Below, piece after piece: positions 287 to 15,331 of a stretch of DNA of 32,739 bases. A program made the position numbers and the translations under genes. The notes beneath the pieces were generated by a model. It was not told where the DNA came from. It made no database searches and saw nothing but the letters and a program-made list of their open reading frames with translations. Every line of letters starts with the position of its first letter. Position 1 is the first letter of the stretch. The stretch comes from a virus: IMG/VR virus record IMGVR_UViG_3300009428_000032, positions 1 to 32,739 of that record; one strand, given 5' to 3'.

Positions 287-733
287 TTATTGTTTTAAGG
301 TTTTTGATTTAGAATGATTTTTATTTAAAAATCTAATTATTCTATCTGTTGTTGCTACACCCTTTCTCATGAATGTAACCGTACCTTGATTCCAATCTAT
401 ATCTACGATATCTCTACACAGAGGAGCCTTAATATCCCCATTTAGTATCGCATAAGATATAGCATCTCTATCTACCATAGTAGCCTTATCAAACTCGTAG
501 AGCATGTCTATCTTACCCGACCCAAACAGTACGGTAGAATGATCTCTACCTATGTATTGACCTATAGCGGATGTGGTTGAGCATGTGTATGACCTACACA
601 TGTTGCAGAACATATGCCTAGCAGTCACTAAGTCTTGTCGCCTATTAACGGTTAGTATATCTTCTTTTTTTACCCCGTAGTACTTGCAAATTACTTTCAT
701 TATATTGTTGAAACTTAATAAATTCTTACTCAT
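287..733 (-). CDS. DnaA C-terminal (domain IV)-like DNA-binding protein
   Basis: 148 residues, about a third the length of full DnaA, with only the DNA-binding end represented. Residues ~10-75 follow the Bac_DnaA_C pattern: a helix over VICKYYGVKKEDIL, the basic TARHMFCNM helix, and the signature GRDHSTVLFGSGKI, which corresponds to the DHSTVLHA box-contacting motif of DnaA domain IV. No AAA+ ATPase part is present, so it cannot act as a full initiator. Such free-standing domains are known in Bacteroidota phages. Binding to DnaA boxes, to recruit or block the host initiator or to act at a phage origin, is inference. The C-terminal ~60 residues match nothing I recognise. It sits in the leftward early operon, 11 bases after a 58-residue gene. 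Confidence 0.85.
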   Translation of the reverse strand: MSKNLLSFNNIMKVICKYYGVKKEDILTVNRRQDLVTARHMFCNMCRSYTCSTTSAIGQYIGRDHSTVLFGSGKIDMLYEFDKATMVDRDAISYAILNGDIKAPLCRDIVDIDWNQGTVTFMRKGVATTDRIIRFLNKNHSKSKTLKQ

Positions 734-744
734 TTTATTTGATT

Positions 745-921
745 TTAATTGTTAAACACTATCTTATCTACACTCTTTATAAGCTTAATCTGCTCGTTAA
801 TCTGATTAATCTTCTTATCGTTCTCCTTCCATATAAGCAGTTCACCATTACGATTATCGTTTTGGAAATCCCACTTAAGTTTTTCTAATGCATCTAGCAA
901 TATATCTTTATCAATTTTCAT
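745..921 (-). CDS. Small hypothetical protein (58 aa), coiled-coil-like
   Basis: An ATG at 919-921 opens a 58-residue frame ending in TAA at 745-747 that fills the gap between the LytTR gene and the DnaA-like gene. The product starts MKIDKDILLDALEKLKW and contains KKINQINEQIKLIKS, a heptad-like run suggesting a short coiled coil. The tight fit between neighbours on the same strand and the absence of another frame support it as real. No function can be assigned. Confidence 0.6.
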   Translation of the reverse strand: MKIDKDILLDALEKLKWDFQNDNRNGELLIWKENDKKINQINEQIKLIKSVDKIVFNN

Positions 922-929
922 AGATTTTA

Positions 930-1274
930 TTATATAAAATTAAACATTAACCTTAATTGTTCCTTAACTTCTAGCTTCCTACTAGCACTGATAGGTATAG
1001 ATATACCATCGGTATCTAGCAGTAAGTAACCACCTAAATCTCTATGCAAAGCTATAACCCTATCGGCATTGACCACAAAAGATCTATGCGTCTTAATGAA
1101 GTTACTTTCAATCAACTTACCCTCTACATAGTTTAAGTTCTTGGATATCATAACCCTTTCATTCGTGCAATGCACAACCGAGTAACTACCATCTGCTTGT
1201 ACGAATAGTATATCATCGGTATCGATAATTTTACTACCATACATAGTCGGCAGACCTATCTTATTCTTCTTCAT
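930..1274 (-). CDS. Stand-alone LytTR DNA-binding domain protein
   Basis: 114 residues that are almost entirely one LytTR domain. Visible family features are the N-terminal strand IIDTDDILFVQADGSYS, the strand pair around ERVMISKNLNYVEGKL, and the diagnostic FIKTHRSFVVNADRVIAL, which corresponds to the F-x-R-x-H-R-S-(Y/F)-hydrophobic-V-N core. LytTR domains normally sit behind a response-regulator receiver domain. Here there is no receiver, so phosphorylation control is absent and the protein probably acts as a constitutive or level-controlled DNA binder. It overlaps the upstream gene by four bases (ATGA), implying translational coupling. A regulator of host or early phage promoters is the likely role (inference). 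Confidence 0.9.
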   Translation of the reverse strand: MKKNKIGLPTMYGSKIIDTDDILFVQADGSYSVVHCTNERVMISKNLNYVEGKLIESNFIKTHRSFVVNADRVIALHRDLGGYLLLDTDGISIPISASRKLEVKEQLRLMFNFI

Positions 1275-1516
1275 AGCTTCTTTACTTTATAGAACACCGC
1301 CTCATTTTTCTCCCCATCACTTATGTCATGCCCCGAAACACTATAATCGTTTCCGACTACCTTCTTTAGCTCAAACATATCTATCGGTAGCCAGTATCCG
1401 AATCTTAAAGTAATGTCGCTATTCGTGCTTATAGACACACTCAGTTGATCATACTTTGACATTCCACTGGCTGACCACCAATTTTCTATCCTCTCTACTA
1501 CATTCATCTTATTCAT
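1271..1516 (-). CDS. Hypothetical early protein (81 aa)
   Basis: 81 residues, starting MNKMNVVERIENWWSASGM. It ends in TGA inside an ATGA overlap with the LytTR gene, so the two are probably translationally coupled. A hydrophilic protein with a possible beta-rich middle (SVSISTNSDITLRFGYWLPI) and no membrane segment or catalytic motif. The second Met (codon 4) is an alternative start. Function unknown. Confidence 0.65.
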   Translation of the reverse strand: MNKMNVVERIENWWSASGMSKYDQLSVSISTNSDITLRFGYWLPIDMFELKKVVGNDYSVSGHDISDGEKNEAVFYKVKKL

Positions 1517-1584
1517 AATTTCTAAATTTATTTATATTCCATACTCGTACCTCGTTCAGCACATAGCTAAACCGTTAGCACCCA

Positions 1585-1740
1585 TTAGTCATAATCGTTA
1601 TCATCATAATCAATACTACCATCCATACCTATTGCGTGTTCAAGCAAAGCCTCTTTAAAATCTCTAATTACACATTCAAAAGTTTCCCTAGAGTGTCCAT
1701 GCTCCTCTATGTATTTGTCAATAAATTCTAGTAAATCCAT
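1585..1740 (-). CDS. Small acidic hypothetical protein (51 aa)
   Basis: An ATG at 1738-1740 opens a 51-residue frame ending in TAA at 1585-1587, in the gap between two clear leftward genes. It begins MDLLEFIDKYIEEHGHSRET and ends in a very acidic tail (DGSIDYDDNDYD). An A/T-rich leader precedes the start, as for neighbouring genes. Small acidic early proteins are common in phage takeover regions, but no function can be read from this one. Confidence 0.55.
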   Translation of the reverse strand: MDLLEFIDKYIEEHGHSRETFECVIRDFKEALLEHAIGMDGSIDYDDNDYD

Positions 1741-1768
1741 TTTGTTTTAGTTTTAAATTAACGGTGCA

Positions 1769-1972
1769 TTACCTTACCTCGTTAAGTAGGTAATCTATTA
1801 TACAATCGTACTCACTCCTAACATCTACATTAAAGTTAGATTTTAAGAATAGATCTTGATGATTTAATACTTCGGGAAATATCAAATCATATTCAAGTTC
1901 TTGGTATTCTGTTTCGTTGTTCTCAATGTGGTTCATAAATAATTGAGAGAATAAAAAGTCTTCGTAATTCAT
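1769..1972 (-). CDS. Small acidic hypothetical protein (67 aa)
   Basis: 67 residues, beginning MNYEDFLFSQLFMNHIENNE, strongly acidic and probably helical. Its leader contains one of three copies of a promoter-like element (1979-2008) on the coding strand, so it may head a transcription unit with the genes to its left. No recognised family. Confidence 0.6.
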   Translation of the reverse strand: MNYEDFLFSQLFMNHIENNETEYQELEYDLIFPEVLNHQDLFLKSNFNVDVRSEYDCIIDYLLNEVR

Positions 1973-1978
1973 AATAAT

Positions 1979-2008
1979 TTAATTAAACGCACCCTAACAA
2001 CATATATA
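1979..2008 (-). promoter_or_regulatory. Candidate early promoter element, copy 1
   Basis: Read on the minus strand this is TATATATG, six bases, then GGGTGCGTTTAATTAA, ending only a few bases before the ATG at 1972. Two similar elements on the same strand lie in the divergent region (7187-7217 and 6670-6699). The repetition and the position just upstream of a leftward gene suggest a phage-specific promoter or operator. It does not match the Bacteroidota consensus TAnnTTTG. Confidence 0.4.
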
Positions 2009-2081
2009 GTTAATGTGCTTAGTTAATATTTGTTTTTAATTTGAAGGCTAGTGCAATCGCATACTAACCATATACTAAACA

Positions 2082-2333
2082 TTACTTGTGATATTCCATA
2101 TCATCCACCCATAGTGGTGTCTTCTCCCCTACATACGCATTGAAGGTGTTAAACTCAGCACATTCTATTGCGTCCTCTTCACTCATATCTTTCATAAGTA
2201 TTTCTATCACTTTGTTTCTAGAGTAAACTACCTTCCACATATTCGGCTCAAAGCCTATTATTGCACCGTTAAATCCATCTGCGAATAATACATCATCGCT
2301 AGATCCATAAACATCTACTATTACTTCATACAT
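2082..2333 (-). CDS. Conserved small phage protein of unknown function (83 aa)
   Basis: 83 residues. The arrangement ADGFNGAIIGFEP, then KVVYSRNKVIEILMKD, then MSEEDAIECAEFNTFNAYVG and EKTPLWV is one I recognise from small proteins widespread in marine and Bacteroidota phages (pattern GFD-A-IG ... EFN--GA-VGE-TP). Their function is not known to me. It is probably cytoplasmic and early. It follows the next gene by three bases, so it is cotranscribed. Confidence 0.75.
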   Translation of the reverse strand: MYEVIVDVYGSSDDVLFADGFNGAIIGFEPNMWKVVYSRNKVIEILMKDMSEEDAIECAEFNTFNAYVGEKTPLWVDDMEYHK

Positions 2334-2336
2334 AGC

Positions 2337-2582
2337 CTATTCGTTTAAGTAAGCTATGTTGAATGAGGTCGAGTATAAGCTATTCCACTCGCAAGACTCA
2401 AGGAATGTCATAGCCAATGTGTTTACCATTTCACTTCCGCTGCTCTCATTGAACACCTCCTCATAGACCAATGCGTGAAACTGATTTGCATTCTCGCATT
2501 TCAATATTAAATGTCTGTCTATATTGCATATAACATCTTTGTACAGCATATAATTCTCGTATGTTTCAAAGTTATTTCTCAT
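2337..2582 (-). CDS. Hypothetical early protein (81 aa)
   Basis: 81 residues starting MRNNFETYENYMLYKDVICN. No membrane segment; three Cys are scattered with no zinc-finger spacing. It overlaps the upstream gene by four bases (ATGA at 2579-2582) and is followed three bases later by the 83-residue conserved gene, so the three are a coupled set. Function unknown. Confidence 0.65.
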   Translation of the reverse strand: MRNNFETYENYMLYKDVICNIDRHLILKCENANQFHALVYEEVFNESSGSEMVNTLAMTFLESCEWNSLYSTSFNIAYLNE

Positions 2583-2746
2583 AATATCATTTTTTTTAGT
2601 TCATCAACTTGTGCAGTTGAAATTAATAGCTTTAAGTATCTATCTATAACCGCCTCAAGTGCATCTCCCTTTAAAGGGAAATCAGTGTCGCAGCATTCTA
2701 ATATAAACTCTTTAAATTCTCGCTTAACCTCTTCTGTATCTTTCAT
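2579..2746 (-). CDS. Small hypothetical protein (55 aa)
   Basis: The ATG at 2744-2746 gives a 55-residue product beginning MKDTEEVKREFKEFILECCD. A GTG seven codons further up would also be in frame, but it overlaps a good Bacteroidota-type -7 element (TATATTTG, minus strand 2774-2767), so I prefer the ATG. Helical and charged, with an adjacent Cys pair. It ends in TGA inside an ATGA overlap with the next gene. Function unknown. Confidence 0.6.
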   Translation of the reverse strand: MKDTEEVKREFKEFILECCDTDFPLKGDALEAVIDRYLKLLISTAQVDELKKMIL

Positions 2747-2766
2747 ATCTATTTTATTTAGATTCA

Positions 2767-2803
2767 CAAATATAATTAAATTGTTAGCAATTCGTTAACA
2801 ATA
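2767..2803 (-). promoter_or_regulatory. Candidate promoter/operator before the 55-aa gene
   Basis: On the minus strand TATATTTG (2774-2767) fits the Bacteroidota -7 consensus TAnnTTTG, about 20 bases before the ATG at 2746. Just upstream is an imperfect inverted repeat, TTGTTAAC then GCTAACAA arms, that includes TGTTAACGAAT, an 11-mer also present at 6553-6563 before the first early gene. The -33 box spacing is poor, so the promoter call is tentative. Confidence 0.3.
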
Positions 2804-3075
2804 ATTAGTTTTTCTTGCCGACCAAAACTACCCATCCTAGTATCACCAGTGTATCTAAGCCTATTCTCGGCTACTAAATTAGTTATTGACCTTCTCACAC
2901 TTGTGAGGGGAATAGTACCATTAAACACTAGTTTAAGTATCTGAGATGCTCCGTATTCGATTGCTTTCTGATCCGATAAGAACTCCATAATCTTTTCGTT
3001 TTGAGTTTTCGCTTTCGTTTCAAATACTTCTAATTGCTTACCACTCTCGTTAGTGGTGTTGTAATAATTTTTCAT
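2776..3075 (-). CDS. Winged-helix DNA-binding protein (99 aa)
   Basis: 99 residues. Residues ~22-90 look like a compact winged helix: AKTQNEKIMEFLSDQ (helix 1), ASQILKLVF (helix 2), PLTSVRRSITNLVAENRL (recognition helix), then a wing around TGDTRMGSFGRQEKLIIV. The SVRRSI-NL--E-RL pattern followed by a G-rich wing and a terminal strand is one I associate with small phage wHTH proteins. Probably an early regulator or DNA-associated protein; its target is unknown. It is preceded within 11 bases by the 120-residue gene on the same strand. Confidence 0.75.
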   Translation of the reverse strand: MKNYYNTTNESGKQLEVFETKAKTQNEKIMEFLSDQKAIEYGASQILKLVFNGTIPLTSVRRSITNLVAENRLRYTGDTRMGSFGRQEKLIIVNELLTI

Positions 3076-3086
3076 TTTAATTTAGG

Positions 3087-3449
3087 TTATTTATTAATAA
3101 AATCTAAAATTTCTTGACAAGTATGTTGCTGAGTACCCCATATATGACCCCAACCAATTTGTGTTGTGTCAATTTTAATATCAGTATTTTTAATTGTAAG
3201 AATATTACCATTTTTTGTGCCAGTTGTTGTATGAATTGGTGAATGCAAACCGCCAGTACTAGTTCGTCTAGTCATACCGTCAATACTATGGTTAATATTG
3301 AGTTCTGTAAGAAGTTTGCTGATAGAGTTAATATTAGGCATTCTATGTTTTGCTTTCCAACCGTTATCATTAGACTTGTTTTGAAGTTTAATAATTGTCT
3401 CTTGTGATTTTTTTGTAAGTTCCATCTTGCTTTTGTTTTCGTTTTTCAT
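3087..3449 (-). CDS. Hypothetical protein (120 aa) with atypical codon use
   Basis: 120 residues, starting MKNENKSKMELTKKSQETI, with a Lys/Asn-rich N-terminus and a Thr/Gly-rich middle (MTRRTSTGGLHSPIHTTTGT). The end, IGWGHIWGTQQHTCQEILDF, looks ordered. Isoleucine is written almost only as ATT here, whereas the flanking genes use ATA freely, which suggests a later arrival. It is spaced one base from the gene upstream and 11 bases from the one downstream. No recognised family. Confidence 0.6.
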   Translation of the reverse strand: MKNENKSKMELTKKSQETIIKLQNKSNDNGWKAKHRMPNINSISKLLTELNINHSIDGMTRRTSTGGLHSPIHTTTGTKNGNILTIKNTDIKIDTTQIGWGHIWGTQQHTCQEILDFINK

Positions 3450-3450
3450 A

Positions 3451-3675
3451 TTAATCTAATCTTAAAAAGTAAGTTCTTAAATCGGTAAAGAACTTAACAT
3501 TGAGATCACCACCAAATTCAACCGCCCCGTCTAGATGTCTTATTGCGTTATCTAGGTCTTTTTTAGCTAGTCTAATTAGCTGCTCTGTAGCATATTGATA
3601 AAAGTATACGTTCGATGTTTCATATATCGATGCTAGTCTTTCTAGTCTTTTGATAACCATTTCTTGATTTGTCAT
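3451..3675 (-). CDS. Hypothetical helical protein (74 aa)
   Basis: 74 residues, MTNQEMVIKRLERLASIYE at the start, predicted largely alpha-helical with alternating hydrophobic and charged residues. No membrane segment or catalytic motif. Preceded by an A/T-rich leader and followed by the 120-residue gene after one base. Function unknown. Confidence 0.65.
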   Translation of the reverse strand: MTNQEMVIKRLERLASIYETSNVYFYQYATEQLIRLAKKDLDNAIRHLDGAVEFGGDLNVKFFTDLRTYFLRLD

Positions 3676-3730
3676 TTTTGTTTAAGTTTAAATTAAGGGT
3701 GAGGAATATCCCCACCCTATAGTATTATTA

Positions 3731-4642
3731 CTACACTTTCTCTAACGCTAACCAACCACACATAGTGTTGTATGCTCTAGCAGATATTGTCGCATCCGTA
3801 CCAAACAATAGACTTTCTACCTTATCTTTTCTAGTGGTAGAATGATTAGTATACCTAGTTACTGCGTTAAACAATGCCCATAACGTCTCACCTTGTTCGT
3901 TTATAGATTGCTCTATGTCGTTAGAGAATTGCTTCATGTTGTTTTGTGTTCGTGTTGACACATCTGACCTATTCTTGTTAGCATCTACCTTGAATACAGA
4001 CATCACAATATCTTGTATGTGATTCTTTTCAAATCTAACATTGGCTGCATTCTCGAATACCTCCAATTGATTATTCTCGTAGTTCATTGCTTGTTGGAAC
4101 AACCGCATAGCTTCATCTAATCTTTGTTGTAGTGAAGCTGAATGCCTGAATTTAGATAGGAATTTATTTGCCATTGCAAACGTATTCTCGCAACACACTA
4201 CTTGATTAGTGCTACCAAATCCAACCGAACCACTGCCATCGTGCTTGTTTGTGATAGTAATATACCTATTCACATCGCTTTTCCCGATATACTTACTAGG
4301 TAATTCTAGCTGAAGGAAGACTCCCGAACCACTACCTATTGAACCACCACCTACATTGCCATAGCTACCTAGTGTAGAAGCATTGTCCCAAGGGTGGTGA
4401 AAGTTAGCGTTTGGATTAAAGTTACCATTCGCAGACTCAATGAGCATATGTGCTGCATCTTTGTTTTGCAGAAACTCATACCTATTACCAACCACACCAA
4501 GAATGGCATCGTTATCACTTCTTTCTACCGCATACTTATCGGGAACAATTGTTCCTTTCGATGTGTACAATTCTTGCTTTGAAGCCGTCCAATTTAATCC
4601 CGTAGCCTCTAGTGTTTCAAATACTATTTCATTCTTATTCAT
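3731..4642 (-). CDS. DUF932 family phage/plasmid protein
   Basis: 303 residues, the normal size for DUF932 proteins (TIGR03299-like). The N-terminal part (TSKGTIVPDKYAVERSDNDA, then ILGVVGNRYEFLQNKDA) matches the family's opening. The central ITNKHDGSGSVGFGSTN and QVVCCENTFAMANK correspond to the family core, in which conserved Cys-x-N-T residues precede a helical C-terminal half. The biochemical role of DUF932 proteins is not established; they are common in phages and plasmids. It is the largest gene in the early block. A Gly/Ser-rich loop (GNVGGGSIGSGSG) interrupts the middle. A 6-bp hairpin sits just before its start. Confidence 0.85.
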   Translation of the reverse strand: MNKNEIVFETLEATGLNWTASKQELYTSKGTIVPDKYAVERSDNDAILGVVGNRYEFLQNKDAAHMLIESANGNFNPNANFHHPWDNASTLGSYGNVGGGSIGSGSGVFLQLELPSKYIGKSDVNRYITITNKHDGSGSVGFGSTNQVVCCENTFAMANKFLSKFRHSASLQQRLDEAMRLFQQAMNYENNQLEVFENAANVRFEKNHIQDIVMSVFKVDANKNRSDVSTRTQNNMKQFSNDIEQSINEQGETLWALFNAVTRYTNHSTTRKDKVESLLFGTDATISARAYNTMCGWLALEKV

Positions 4643-4650
4643 AATTTTTT

Positions 4651-4666
4651 TGATGGTAAGCCATCA
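4651..4666 (-). promoter_or_regulatory. Small hairpin in the DUF932 leader
   Basis: TGATGG-CTTA-CCATCA on the minus strand forms a perfect 6-bp stem with a 4-base loop, ending eight bases before the DUF932 start codon. It is too weak and T-poor to be a terminator on this strand. It could mask the start or be an operator half-site pair. Role inferred from position only. Confidence 0.3.
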
Positions 4667-4678
4667 CCTATTTGATTA

Positions 4679-5011
4679 TTAAATTAAGTTTGAATTGTAA
4701 CTATTTTCGATTTCCTTGAGTTCTCTTTTCTTGCATTTAGTCTTAATGAATGCACCGTATTCGATGTTATTATCTAAACAATACCTTCTTAAATTCTGAC
4801 CATACTCGCAAGATATCACGTTAAATTCCGTTAACAACTTCTTTGCTTGTTCTTCGTACTGCTCATCATATCCGTACTGAAAGGGTATTAAATACTCTTT
4901 ATCGTAACCATATTGAGGTCTAACCTTTATTGTCCCTGCAAAGTAGCTATTACAATTAACTCTGTCGAACCATTCTTTTGCTTGTATTTCTATTTTTGTT
5001 ACCATAACCAT
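4679..5011 (-). CDS. Hypothetical early protein (110 aa)
   Basis: 110 residues. The first codons give MVMVTKIEIQ, so the start may be codon 1 or codon 3; the latter gives 108 residues. The middle is Tyr-rich (RPQYGYDKEYLIPFQYGYDE), with two YGYD(K/E) repeats, and the C-terminus is Lys/Glu-rich. No recognised domain. It lies between the tRNA-like element and the DUF932 gene on the same strand. Confidence 0.65.
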   Translation of the reverse strand: MVMVTKIEIQAKEWFDRVNCNSYFAGTIKVRPQYGYDKEYLIPFQYGYDEQYEEQAKKLLTEFNVISCEYGQNLRRYCLDNNIEYGAFIKTKCKKRELKEIENSYNSNLI

Positions 5012-5037
5012 TTAGCTTAAATTAATATTTGGATTAG

Positions 5038-5100
5038 TAGCACAGAGGGAGTCGAACCCTCTGACAGAGAGAATCGAACCCCCTGAAACCATTTGTGCTC
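5038..5100 (-). ncRNA. tRNA-like structured element with tandem T-arm hairpins
   Basis: On the minus strand a 6-bp outer stem, AGCACA (5099-5094) with TGTGCT (5044-5039), encloses two adjacent 21-base hairpins. CAGGGGG-TTCGATT-CTCTCTG lies at 5085-5065 (7 bp, two G-U pairs). CAGAGGG-TTCGACT-CCCTCTG lies at 5063-5043 (7 bp, perfect). Both have T-loop sequence. Read as a tRNA, the first hairpin is an anticodon arm (loop TTCGATT, anticodon CGA), then a short variable loop, a T-arm and an acceptor strand, but only ~10 bases are available for a D-arm and there is no encoded CCA. It starts 19 bases after the upstream stop codon. It may be a D-armless tRNA, a tRNA mimic, or a decayed tRNA whose T-arm was duplicated. 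Confidence 0.45.
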
Positions 5101-5118
5101 TTTGTTTGTTATATACAA

Positions 5119-5385
5119 TTAGTATAACCAAGTTTGAGATAATTCAACTCTATATTCAGAAGCTTCTCCATTAACGTCTAATTTCACTAATACGTCTATT
5201 GGTGAAGCGCTTATACAATCGTCTAAATTTTCTATTTGCTCTTCAACGAATGAAAAGGAAATTAATGTTGCATCAAAATGGGACTCAATTGCTTCTTTGA
5301 ATTTGTCACCAATGTTTTCAATAGTTACTGTGCCTACATTTGGGCATTCGCTATTTTCTGATTCTAAAATTGTTATATATTTCAT
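5119..5385 (-). CDS. Hypothetical early protein (88 aa)
   Basis: 88 residues, starting MKYITILESENSECPNVGTV, acidic, with alternating strand-like and helical stretches. No signal peptide or membrane segment. Ile is written mostly as ATT, as in the 120-residue gene to the left. It directly precedes the tRNA-like element on the same strand. Function unknown. Confidence 0.6.
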   Translation of the reverse strand: MKYITILESENSECPNVGTVTIENIGDKFKEAIESHFDATLISFSFVEEQIENLDDCISASPIDVLVKLDVNGEASEYRVELSQTWLY

Positions 5386-5400
5386 TTTATTTATTTTTAA

Positions 5401-5625
5401 TTATAAATTATCTCTTACTGAGTTGTTCATCATCATTTGGCTAGTTGGTGCAATACCAAAACTTACCCAATTATCTTTATTGTTAAACTGAGCTCTACAA
5501 TGATCCATAATAGAATCATCAAATTCTAAATGATTACCTGCAACATCAGTTACGGGATGCCATTTACCTTGCCACCCATCATGAAGGAAAGTAACCCAAG
5601 CCATTTCTTTATTTAAATCTAACAT
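5401..5625 (-). CDS. Hypothetical early protein (74 aa)
   Basis: 74 residues, starting MLDLNKEMAWVTFLHDGWQG. Trp-rich (four Trp), with no recognised motif. Its end is 15 bases from the next leftward gene, and it starts seven bases after the stop of the 80-residue gene upstream, so it is internal to the operon. Function unknown. Confidence 0.6.
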   Translation of the reverse strand: MLDLNKEMAWVTFLHDGWQGKWHPVTDVAGNHLEFDDSIMDHCRAQFNNKDNWVSFGIAPTSQMMMNNSVRDNL

Positions 5626-5632
5626 AACGCTT

Positions 5633-5875
5633 TTAATTTACTTTAAAATTATCAATATTAAAATTTCTTCTCAATTTGTTCTCCACTAATACTCTTCTAT
5701 CACCTATTCCCGAGACGTAATGAATAGTCCCGTGACTATGTAAGTATCTTGCCCGTATTTCGCTCACAATGCTGTGAATAGTGATATTTAATGGTCGGCA
5801 AATACCCGCACCTCTATCATAGTTCTCTAAGGTAAATAGCTGACTTCCATTTGTATAAATTACAATCTCCTTCAT
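5633..5875 (-). CDS. Hypothetical early protein (80 aa)
   Basis: 80 residues, starting MKEIVIYTNGSQLFTLENYD, basic overall, with an Arg-rich second half (RARYLHSHGTIHY, then GDRRVLVENKLRRNF) that could touch nucleic acid. This is a charge-based guess with no family match. A/T-rich leader (TTTTTTTAG region) upstream. Confidence 0.6.
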   Translation of the reverse strand: MKEIVIYTNGSQLFTLENYDRGAGICRPLNITIHSIVSEIRARYLHSHGTIHYVSGIGDRRVLVENKLRRNFNIDNFKVN

Positions 5876-5902
5876 AACTCTTTTTTTTAGATTAATATTA
5901 AA

Positions 5903-6163
5903 TTAGTAGCTTCCTTGCTTAAATAGCTCTGTCTTTTCGATTCTTGCTACTTCATATGCGGGTAGTTCATCGCAGTAACATTCGTATTTGTCGAAACTAT
6001 CCTCGCATTTTTTGTTTATGCGTCTCAATTCCTTTGATTCGTACTCTTCGCATTCTAGATTATCATATATGACATCTCTTTTTGCATTAAATGCATTGTA
6101 CTTTACTAGCCAAGCAATAGCCTTGTTTAGATTACTTTGATTTGCTTTTGTTTTTGCCTTCAT
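5903..6163 (-). CDS. Hypothetical early protein (86 aa)
   Basis: 86 residues, starting MKAKTKANQSNLNKAIAWLV, with a basic N-terminus and an acidic Cys-containing middle (DSFDKYECYCDELPAYEVAR). The single CYC pair is not enough for a zinc finger. Second cistron of the leftward block. Function unknown. Confidence 0.6.
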   Translation of the reverse strand: MKAKTKANQSNLNKAIAWLVKYNAFNAKRDVIYDNLECEEYESKELRRINKKCEDSFDKYECYCDELPAYEVARIEKTELFKQGSY

Positions 6164-6191
6164 CTTTGTTTGTTTTATTATTTTAATAATG

Positions 6192-6485
6192 TTATCCTTT
6201 ATAATTTTCTAGAATCCAATTAATTAATAACGCTCTGTGATTGTCCGATAACTGACAATAGAATGTGTTAAACACTGCATTGCTTCCTACCCTATCATAT
6301 ATAGACGAGAACTTGCTATTGAAATGGTCTACCATTACAGGATTATCTTTCCATACATCAGAAATAAAGTTGTGCGGATAATTAAAACCAAACATAATTA
6401 CCTTATTTACTGTCTTTAAACTAGTCAACTCATTGACTTTCAGAGTCTTAACGCTCGTACTACTCATTTGTTCTATCTCTTCCAT
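6192..6485 (-). CDS. First gene of the leftward early block, hypothetical (97 aa)
   Basis: 97 residues, starting MEEIEQMSSTSVKTLKVNEL. The C-terminal half (FYCQLSDNHRALLINWILEN) looks like a compact helical region. No known family is recognised. It is closest to the divergent control region, and the phased TGTTAR repeats begin about 40 bases upstream of its start, so it is probably among the first genes expressed. Small first-in-operon proteins of this kind often act on the host, but nothing in the sequence shows that here. Confidence 0.65.
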   Translation of the reverse strand: MEEIEQMSSTSVKTLKVNELTSLKTVNKVIMFGFNYPHNFISDVWKDNPVMVDHFNSKFSSIYDRVGSNAVFNTFYCQLSDNHRALLINWILENYKG

Positions 6486-13535: not shown

Positions 13536-15074
13536 ATGTCTGACGGAATCGTTAAGAATTTAAACTTCGGAGACGAAGGTAAAAATAAAGTGTTTGAAGG
13601 TGTATCAAAATTAACACGTGCCGTTAGCTCTACATTAGGGGCTAGTGGTAAATGTGTTATGCTTGAGGATGGATCTGGCAAACCACTAATAACAAAGGAT
13701 GGTGTAACTGTAGCAAATTCAATTATACTGTTAGACCCCGTAGAAAACATGGGTGCAACGCTTCTAAAGGAAGCTGCTAGGCAAACCGTAAAAGAAGCTG
13801 GCGATGGAACAACAACGGCTACGGTGCTGGCACACTCTATACTAAAGGAGGCTTTTAATACAAAGGATTACAACTCTAGAGAAATTAGGGATGGTATAAA
13901 CTCCGCTGTTGAGAAGGTAATTGGTTACCTGGAGAACAAAGCAAAGTCCGTAGAGGGTTCAATGCTTAATCATGTAGCCACAATATCATCCAACAATGAC
14001 AAGTACTTAGGAGAGGTTATAGCTAGTACATTTGAAAGGGTTGGTGATAACGGGGTGGTTAGTATGGAGATATCTAACGATGAGAAGACAACCGCTGAAA
14101 TAGTTGACGGAGCTACCTTAAACAAGGGTCTTAAAAGTATGCATTTTGTGAATAACAAAGAAAAGGGTACTTGCGAGTTAAATAACCCGCTGGTACTTAT
14201 AGTAGAGGACAAAATACCTAACGTAAGAAAGATACAAAGCATACTTGAACATATTATCAAGGAAAAGAAAGAGCTACTTATAATTGGTGATGCAGATGAG
14301 CAGGTAATTACAGCATTGGCAATGAATGCCATGAAAGGTAATATCAAGGCTAATATAGTTGACGCACCAGATTACGGTATAAACAGAAAGCAGATACTAG
14401 AAGACTTCGCTGCATTAACTGGAGCTAAGGTTATAAACGAAGAATTAGGGGACGATATGGATCTGATTGAATCAGATTATTTAGGAACATGCTTAAAGGT
14501 AACTACAGACAATGAAGAAACTATCTTACAAACTGAAGGCGTTAATGATGACGTTGACAATCTTATTAAAAAGATTAATTTACAGCTTAAAGAAACTAGT
14601 GCTCCCTTTAAAAAAGTTCAGCTTGAAAAAAGGCTTTCTAGGCTTGCGGGCAAAGTTGGTGTTATTAAAGTTGGTGCTAACTCGGAAGTTGAATTAAAGG
14701 AAAAGAGTGACAGGGTTGAGGATGCAATATGTGCAACCAAGGCCGCTATCAAGGAAGGTATACTTCCAGGTGGGGGAATAGCCTTACTAAATGCAAGCAA
14801 TAAAATTAAACCTAAAGGCTTAGGTGAAGAAATCTTACTAAGAGCGTTGAAGGCTCCGTTTGATATTATAATGGAAAATGCAGGCATGCAGGACTTTGAA
14901 GCACCTAAGGTTGAAGGTAAGGGATACAATGTGGTTACAGGAAAAATGGTAAATATGATTAGCGCAGGAATAGTCGACCCTTTGCTGGTAACTAAAAGTG
15001 CTTTGAAGAATGCTGCATCTGTAGCAAATACAATACTAGCTACTGATTGTGTAATTAATAACTTAAGAGCATGA
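13536..15074 (+). CDS. groEL: Phage-encoded chaperonin GroEL (Cpn60)
   Basis: 512 residues, close to bacterial GroEL (~545). Equatorial ATP-site motifs are intact: TKDG (53-56), GDGTTTATVL (89-98) and GILPGGGIALL (408-418). RVED at 393-396 carries the Asp equivalent to the catalytic D398 of E. coli GroEL, and GIVDPLLVTKSAL (478-490) matches GILDPTKVTRSAL. The apical domain spans roughly 185-375. The C-terminus stops at NNLRA, without the Gly-Gly-Met tail. It would fold phage proteins, probably virion components, in an ATP-driven cage with GroES. The groES start overlaps its TGA stop (ATGA). An A/T-rich leader (AATCTAATCTAATTTAATAA) precedes it. Unusual in phages; likely captured from a bacterium long ago and diverged. 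Confidence 0.95.
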   Translation: MSDGIVKNLNFGDEGKNKVFEGVSKLTRAVSSTLGASGKCVMLEDGSGKPLITKDGVTVANSIILLDPVENMGATLLKEAARQTVKEAGDGTTTATVLAHSILKEAFNTKDYNSREIRDGINSAVEKVIGYLENKAKSVEGSMLNHVATISSNNDKYLGEVIASTFERVGDNGVVSMEISNDEKTTAEIVDGATLNKGLKSMHFVNNKEKGTCELNNPLVLIVEDKIPNVRKIQSILEHIIKEKKELLIIGDADEQVITALAMNAMKGNIKANIVDAPDYGINRKQILEDFAALTGAKVINEELGDDMDLIESDYLGTCLKVTTDNEETILQTEGVNDDVDNLIKKINLQLKETSAPFKKVQLEKRLSRLAGKVGVIKVGANSEVELKEKSDRVEDAICATKAAIKEGILPGGGIALLNASNKIKPKGLGEEILLRALKAPFDIIMENAGMQDFEAPKVEGKGYNVVTGKMVNMISAGIVDPLLVTKSALKNAASVANTILATDCVINNLRA

Positions 15075-15331
15075 GAGCAGTAGGAAAATATATACTAATA
15101 GAGCCAGTTAAAGAAGGTGAGGTATCTACCAAGGGAGGATTGTTATTAGCTGAAACTCATAGGGACGATATAAGATACAGGGAGGCTAAGGTTAAAACCA
15201 TAGGAGCCCTTGTTGAAGGTGTTAAGGACGGGGATACTATCTACTATGATAGACACGCTGGATTTGATATGGAAGTTGACAAGACTATGTATAAGGTTAT
15301 CAAAGAGTTTGATGTTGTTGTAGTTTTATGA
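15071..15331 (+). CDS. groES: Phage-encoded co-chaperonin GroES (Cpn10)
   Basis: 86 residues, slightly shorter than bacterial GroES (~97). It opens with a Cpn10-like strand (AVGKYILIEPVKEGEVSTKG), followed by the mobile loop GGLLL, which corresponds to the GGIVL that docks on GroEL. The second half (AKVKTIGALVEGVKDGDTIY, then YDRHAGFDMEVDKTMYKV) follows the barrel strands and the V-x-x-GD-V-x-Y pattern. It caps the phage GroEL, whose gene overlaps it by four bases, and may also work with host GroEL. It ends in TGA in an ATGA overlap with the next gene, with a TAG two codons later. Confidence 0.9.
   Translation: MRAVGKYILIEPVKEGEVSTKGGLLLAETHRDDIRYREAKVKTIGALVEGVKDGDTIYYDRHAGFDMEVDKTMYKVIKEFDVVVVL

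Follow-up and report, generated by a model that had tools for sequence, protein, structure and literature searches.

The element at positions 5038-5100 of the viral DNA analysed here (the window, 32,739 nucleotides in all) is probably one copy of a widespread, unregistered minimal tRNA mimic of phages. The mimic comprises the top half of a tRNA (acceptor stem, D-loop segment with GG, and T-arm), has its T-arm duplicated in this copy, and would punctuate polycistronic mRNA so that host RNase P, and probably also RNase Z, could cut it. This reading builds on what is observed of the family: its sequence, covariation, a rule of helix length, placement between genes and rarity outside phages.

A tRNA-like element in an early operon

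The preliminary description had located an acceptor-like stem enclosing two hairpins at these coordinates within the early operon, and all of this holds, the sequence being that of the minus strand. Minus is also the sense strand of the early genes and mRNA at 287-6485, and the element proper runs from 5099 to 5037. Read 5' to 3', the RNA passes from AAAG into the 5' strand of the acceptor-like stem, AGCACA (5094-5099; all features given here are on the minus strand), which pairs with TGTGCT (5044-5039); the stem covaries in the family and reads AGCGC/GTGCT in a homologue from the related contig L127. The D-loop-like AATGGTTT (5086-5093) follows, with equivalents of G18 and G19; it is identical in L127 and is supported by the held-out set described below. 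At the position of an anticodon arm stands a first T-arm hairpin, CAGGGGG-TTCGATT-CTCTCTG (5065-5085), with seven pairs including two G·U and the T-loop TTCGATT. After a single T comes the second, CAGAGGG-TTCGACT-CCCTCTG (5043-5063), which is matched by the T-arm part of our covariance model R1 and abuts the 3' strand of the acceptor-like stem (5039-5044). The first two bases of that strand could pair in either stem, and its remaining TGCT leads into ACTAAT, whose A-C (5037-5038) corresponds to tRNA positions 73-74, where A and C each occur in 60% of 173 elements.

The two hairpins had been described as near copies with three differences per 22-base unit, and they are indeed a 22-nt tandem duplication (5042-5063 and 5064-5085; 86% identical, 3 differences in 22 nt). 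The differences fall at stem position 4 (G·U versus A-U), at stem position 16 (G·U versus G-C) and at variable loop base 59, and all three are structure-neutral. Their nature, two G·U/Watson-Crick swaps and one variable loop base, indicates that both hairpins are kept as RNA of the minus strand only.

In the ORF list, the element lies between an upstream early gene of 88 aa (5119-5385, minus strand; 80% identical to a homologue in L208), whose stop codon ends 19 nt ahead of the acceptor stem, and a downstream early gene of 110 aa (4679-5011, minus strand; homologues at 77-78% in L122-L125), whose ATG lies 27 nt past the element. Neither gene has a Pfam match. No obvious hairpin is found 3' of the element, which occurs once within the 32.7-kb fragment. 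The leftward operon (287-6485) consists of small genes, mostly of no assigned function. Two of them (287-733 and 930-1274) encode a DnaA C-terminal DNA-binding domain and a LytTR DNA-binding domain and are, judging by these domains, likely regulators or origin binders. Elsewhere in the window, 13536-15331 encodes a phage chaperonin pair, Cpn60/GroEL-like (E 4e-56) and Cpn10/GroES-like (E 3e-11).

The region by itself folds better than all 200 dinucleotide shuffles (z -2.8). However, its minimum-energy fold (-26.2 kcal/mol) pairs the two T-arm copies with each other, and the two-hairpin form reaches -22.1; folding energy alone therefore does not support the two-hairpin drawing. R1 matches the window at 5096-5064 with 18.8 bits (E 0.0032, filters off), and the tmRNA model RF00023 gives 11.3 bits, on a T-arm only. 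In the window, ARAGORN called no tRNA and Rfam 15 gave 0 matches at the gathering threshold. An initial pattern scan for tandem GGTTCGA returned mostly coding matches and a few tRNA-end duplications, and a dedicated tandem-T-arm pattern found only 12 cases in viral contigs, most of them other things. At the level of sequence, the support for the window element that goes beyond chance is comparative: a single-T-arm homologue with compensated stem changes, and hundreds of covarying relatives.

That homologue lies on the L127/L122 contig, which carries genes homologous to the neighbours of the window element together with a single-T-arm version, AAAG-AGCGC-C-AATGGTTT-A-TGCGAG-TTCGATT-CTCGCA-GTGCT-ACTAATC, with a five-pair acceptor. 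AATGGTTT and the ACTAATC tail are the same as in the window; the T-arm stem differs by paired changes. In L127 the element is downstream of the homologue of gene 4679-5011, whereas in the window it is upstream of that gene, which ties the element to gaps and not to one gene. It is absent from the relatives L124, L208, L128, L132, L165 and L172 (records that are possibly fragments) and thus comes and goes among relatives. In a blastn search, the early region had no near DNA relative among named phages; the window terminase is 45% identical to those of Flavobacterium phages and 64% to those of MW202828 phages.

The family retains the top half of a tRNA

The family consensus, about 45 nt long, is an acceptor stem of 5-7 bp, a D-loop-like AAYGGTT, a T-arm and then A-C. 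Members have no D-stem, and nearly all are without an anticodon arm. The usual element has one T-arm, and tandem T-arms are peculiar to the window copy, which holds all family parts plus a second T-arm in the place of the anticodon arm; its duplication is a derived variant, either functional or on its way out. Mycobacteriophages provide precedents for an inserted arm at this place: some of their copies have a helix there that resembles an anticodon arm or the P2 of tmRNA.

Viral contigs were searched with the pattern AATGGTTT N4-9 GTTCGATTC. The stems were left out of this pattern and can thus be used as a test of structure. Among the distinct matches listed, 96 of 113 (85%) form an acceptor of at least 5 bp, compared with 15% when the arms are permuted, and the T-stem extends by at least 4 in 87% of the same 113, compared with 9%. 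With a held-out AACGGTTT pattern, both stems are formed in 72% of the 82 distinct matches listed, against an expectation of about 2.5%.

Covariation was counted in a single-length alignment (A4) of 28 diverse copies; a mixed-length MAFFT alignment (A3) was set aside because gaps were misplaced in its stems. In A4, 142 cells are changed on both sides of a pair, compared with 38.7 after shuffling, and pairing stands at 98.7%, compared with about 50% once the partner is slid by one base. The A4 copies were preselected for pairing, and the unbiased tests of pairing are thus the unselected-pattern and held-out sets. R1 finds many copies per locus, and 60 of these, fitted to the model, repeat the covariation picture. 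The preliminary description had proposed conservation of the pairing as a check, with a lack of compensatory changes in homologues counting against it; such changes are abundant.

The coaxial helix of acceptor and T-stem measures 11-13 bp in 166 of 173 elements, with a mode of 12, as in the 12-bp stack of tRNA. AATGGTT or AACGGTT is present in 158 of the 173 (AATGGTT was in the search pattern). The tRNA hallmarks of a TTCRANY T-loop and a GG in the D-loop are likewise present, partly through the search pattern. ACCA follows the acceptor in only 5 of 173 elements, and the third acceptor pair is G·U in 8.

Some relatives are larger: their D-loop and T-arm are separated by an additional arm, either anticodon-like or a long tmRNA-P2-like stem (L410 5528-5724 and 8975-9095; L544 3359-3478 and 4434-4633; L546 5456-5604). 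Another, related-looking group (L422, L428, L429, L426 and L433) shares an arrangement in which a further T-arm and a hairpin AGTAC..GTGTCGA.. come after one element or T-arm.

Elements stand one per gap, just past stop codons

Four annotated mycobacteriophages were surveyed (Cuke, Fowlmouth, MrMiyagi and Indlulamithi). A tRNA-like element occupies 46 of the 50 gaps in their early regions, compared with 0% for shuffled gaps and 1.4% for coding windows. The order within a gap is stop codon, a spacer of about 8-10 nt, element, ACG, small hairpin, ribosome-binding site and start codon. Orthologous gaps have compensated stems, such as CCGGGG/CCCCGG in Cuke and CCCTGG/CCAGGG in MrMiyagi. The sole element-free early gap in Cuke, Fowlmouth and MrMiyagi (L410 1336-1414, L544 597-676 and L545 668-743) holds a conserved double hairpin of a different kind, GGCCACTCTCGAAAGAGAGTGTGCC ... 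CTGGTCAATTCAGACC.

Of the 173 elements, 24.9% have a stop codon that ends 8-11 nt upstream of the acceptor (0.7% at random positions), and a start codon lies 21-60 nt after the element in 35.8% (7.6% at random positions). Among the matches listed for the held-out set, 54% have a stop codon 0-11 nt away on their own strand, compared with 3.4% for the opposite strand. A hairpin occurs at most 36 nt past the element in 40%, compared with 8% of sequences shuffled by mononucleotide, a weaker control than dinucleotide shuffling. The genes that flank elements are varied and include those for a major head protein, single-strand DNA-binding protein, primase, sigma factor, methyltransferase and unknown products. 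In contigs such as L452 and L484, four or five near-identical copies, one per gap, resemble those of Chryseobacterium prophages. On the reverse strand of L355 (about 4490-4850), three tandem elements are spaced by a degenerate 5-nt periodic sequence with no obvious gene.

Elements are essentially phage-borne, as indicated by their rarity in bacterial genomes. Under stricter filters, 246 random Bacteroidota genomes gave one match. Fourteen genomes chosen for having a match contain one to five copies each, on a single contig in all but one genome, and a narrower pattern run over the whole 257-Gb genome collection returned 56 stretches, some of them coding matches. Other named carriers include the phages Corynebacterium PSonyx, Gordonia Cafasso, Streptococcus D4446 and Javan199, Microcystis Mel-JY01 and Pasteurella PMP-GADVASU-IND. 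In PSonyx, the element (L397 1495-1540) is directly upstream of the RtcB-like RNA ligase gene gp91. A variant with the loop ACTGGCATAA in the haloarchaeal virus HRTV7 (L401 1484-1528) overlaps the stop codon of a LAGLIDADG endonuclease gene.

The element is not annotated as a feature in any of the named carrier phages, and Rfam 15 gave 0 matches at the gathering threshold in ten element-rich loci of 80 kb. Searches of an open-access literature collection turned up no account of such elements in phages, which by itself does not establish novelty.

A model for operon punctuation

From these features we infer D-loop/T-loop docking and cleavage at the elements, as follows. Once early mRNA is synthesised, the GG of the D-loop would dock into the T-loop, the T-arm would stack on the acceptor to give a helix of about 12 bp, and the tRNA-processing enzymes of the host would recognise the resulting elbow. 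The RNase P cut would fall on the acceptor's 5' side, in many phages some 8-10 nt past the stop codon of the upstream gene; a 3' processing enzyme, RNase Z or another, would cleave past the acceptor, near the conserved A-C. Both cuts together would yield monocistronic mRNAs, and in many phages the downstream mRNA would then start with a protective hairpin and the next ribosome-binding site.

A published account of RNase P (PMC11143913) reports that the enzyme measures off 12 bp from the T-loop, shows sensitivity at G19, G53 and A58, and cuts model hairpins made of acceptor and T-stem; both RNase P and RNase Z are described as gauging the distance from the elbow to the 3' end (PMC11286949). Equivalents of G19, G53 and A58 are all conserved in the element family, and what is conserved (D-loop GG, G53, T-loop and the helix of about 12 bp) is what gives a tRNA its elbow and its measuring rod. 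A cutting mark would be expected, by analogy, to look like this: on the sense strand, present in every gap and placed just beyond the reach of the terminating ribosome. Of the options in the preliminary description, a processing signal is the one that the sequence evidence favours, through one copy per gap just past the stop codon, co-orientation with the genes and strong covariation. Bacterial RNase P prefers CCA, whereas the 3' end of the element is A-C-N, and CCA inhibits RNase Z. The near absence of CCA thus fits a 3' endonuclease such as RNase Z and lowers the efficiency expected of RNase P.

Comparison with known systems

The closest parallel in use is that of mitochondrial t-elements, or tRNA punctuation: tRNA-like structures between or beside protein genes in polycistronic transcripts are cut by the tRNA 5' and 3' endonucleases, a mechanism used in plant mitochondria (PMC8003010, citing Forner 2007 and Hanic-Joyce 1990). 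The phage element is similarly tRNA-like and stands between protein genes on the sense strand, as the 46 of 50 gaps and the same-strand bias attest. It differs in being borne by bacterial phages, in its much smaller size, 45-nt consensus and A-C tail, and in occupying nearly every gap of some regions; its cutting is inferred only.

With the tRNA-like domain of tmRNA (RF00023) the element shares an acceptor stem, a D-loop without a D-stem and a T-arm. Unlike tmRNA, it is multicopy between genes and lacks an mRNA-like domain with a tag frame, the D-loop and T-arm being a few nucleotides apart in nearly all copies. Pseudoknots, CCA and the conserved alanine identity pair G3:U70 are also lacking, and the P2 helix is absent from most copies. 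In Rfam, the strongest matches under threshold were to RF00023 (20.2 bits; gathering threshold 47) and to mascRNA, taken up below. Annotated phage tmRNA genes were seen in Cellulophaga phage Calle_1 (L412 521-880) and crAss-like phage cr50_1 (L413 738-1233), and a stretch of Cellulophaga phi38:1 (L411) that matches phage tmRNA genes has been left unannotated. Phage tmRNA genes are a possible evolutionary source of the tRNA-like domains.

The mascRNA/menRNA family (RF01684) likewise places a tRNA-like module beside a long RNA, and mascRNA is processed by RNase P and RNase Z. It differs in lying at the 3' ends of eukaryotic lncRNAs, in single copy and with an anticodon-like arm; a full-length weak match scored 15.6 bits against a gathering threshold of 42.5. 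Phage T7 is a further case of operons with repeated intergenic RNA structures, in which RNase III sites provide the punctuation, but there the structures are long double-stranded hairpins and not tRNA elbows, and the enzyme is another. Phage RNAs recognised by host RNase P are known, namely phi80 M3 RNA, C4 antisense RNA and T4 gene 32 mRNA (PMC11143913), but none is a repeated intergenic tRNA top half. The M3 RNA, annotated in phi80 as an oop homologue, was considered as a precedent and rejected: phi80 carries no copy of the element. In bacterial Y RNA (YrlA), a tRNA-like module is joined to a Y RNA stem with a Ro-binding site; beside the 45-nt core of the phage element no Y-stem is apparent.

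Alternative explanations

The elements might remain uncut and act as stable tRNA-shaped insulators that shield the upstream 3' end from exonucleases or halt post-termination ribosomes before the next cistron. The 8-11 nt between stop codon and element roughly match the stretch of mRNA that a terminating ribosome covers, and a second hairpin often follows. We consider this unlikely, since a plain hairpin would suffice, and the conserved D-loop GG, G53, A58, other T-loop residues and 12-bp stack are hard to explain without machinery that binds tRNA. Alternatively, the elements might mimic tRNA, or the tRNA-like part of tmRNA, and thereby lure SmpB, T-loop-modifying enzymes or tRNA-targeting host defences, either as decoys or as landing sites. 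A phage with many copies would have many decoys, some larger copies have a P2-like helix, and two copies align over the full length of the Rfam tmRNA model, its middle being deleted (20.2 bits). That fit is nevertheless under the curated threshold, no reading frame or conserved G3:U70 is present (8 of 173 have G·U as third pair), and decoys would not need a strict place, one per gap, after stop codons. Decoys thus strike us as quite improbable.

Cassette-like shuffling of small genes at DNA-level recombination sites (att or attC-like) would fit an element on opposite sides of the same gene in the window and L127, and one element per small gene recalls cassette arrays. Here, too, belongs the earlier suggestion of a decayed tRNA serving as an att-like site. 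However, copies within one genome, such as L298, share structure and not stem sequence: pairing is kept while the stems differ, and the conserved core common to attC or att copies was not found. A DNA site would have no need of tRNA-specific loops, G·U pairs or a sense-strand bias, and integrases are rare among the flanking genes; we regard this origin as very improbable. Least credible, to the point of hardly deserving belief, is a functional D-armless tRNA-Ser(CGA) or its fossil. The cloverleaf-like drawing with a CGA loop had suggested a decoding tRNA, but CGA simply belongs to TTCGATT, the T-loop of the extra arm; a U would stand at position 37, and no tRNA is called. Moreover, the relative's copy and nearly all other members have no arm at the anticodon position.

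A different question is whether the window copy still works. Its mispaired minimum-energy fold, the lack of an obvious following hairpin, a stop codon 19 nt away instead of 8-10, and a score of only 18.8 bits mean that it may be a weak, partly decayed example. The stronger claim, that the T-arm duplication permits mispairing and has already abolished function, is compatible with operon punctuation by the family as a whole, and the simple form retained in a relative agrees with it; we hold it to be a minority prospect, if one to be taken seriously. Against it, all three copy differences preserve both hairpins, the acceptor stem, D-loop and A-C tail are intact, and extra-arm copies at the same place are known in mycobacteriophages.

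Implications

Returning to the preferred reading, a tRNA mimic that marks mRNA for cutting, we are evenly divided on its broadest form. In that form, unrelated phages of Actinobacteria, Bacteroidota, Firmicutes, Proteobacteria and Cyanobacteria, and perhaps one haloarchaeal virus, would share an undescribed tRNA mimic that, gene after gene, hands polycistronic mRNAs to host RNase P and RNase Z, a punctuation previously associated with mitochondria. If the reading is true, the elements would be a new and very common class of phage RNA, missed by tRNA finders and Rfam, in the gaps that annotation leaves blank. They would offer minimal natural substrates for studies of elbow recognition by RNase P and RNase Z, and R1 would serve as a model for annotating phage operons. 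Phages would set the units of their mRNAs through the tRNA-processing enzymes of the host, which could be tested in isolated Mycobacterium smegmatis phages.
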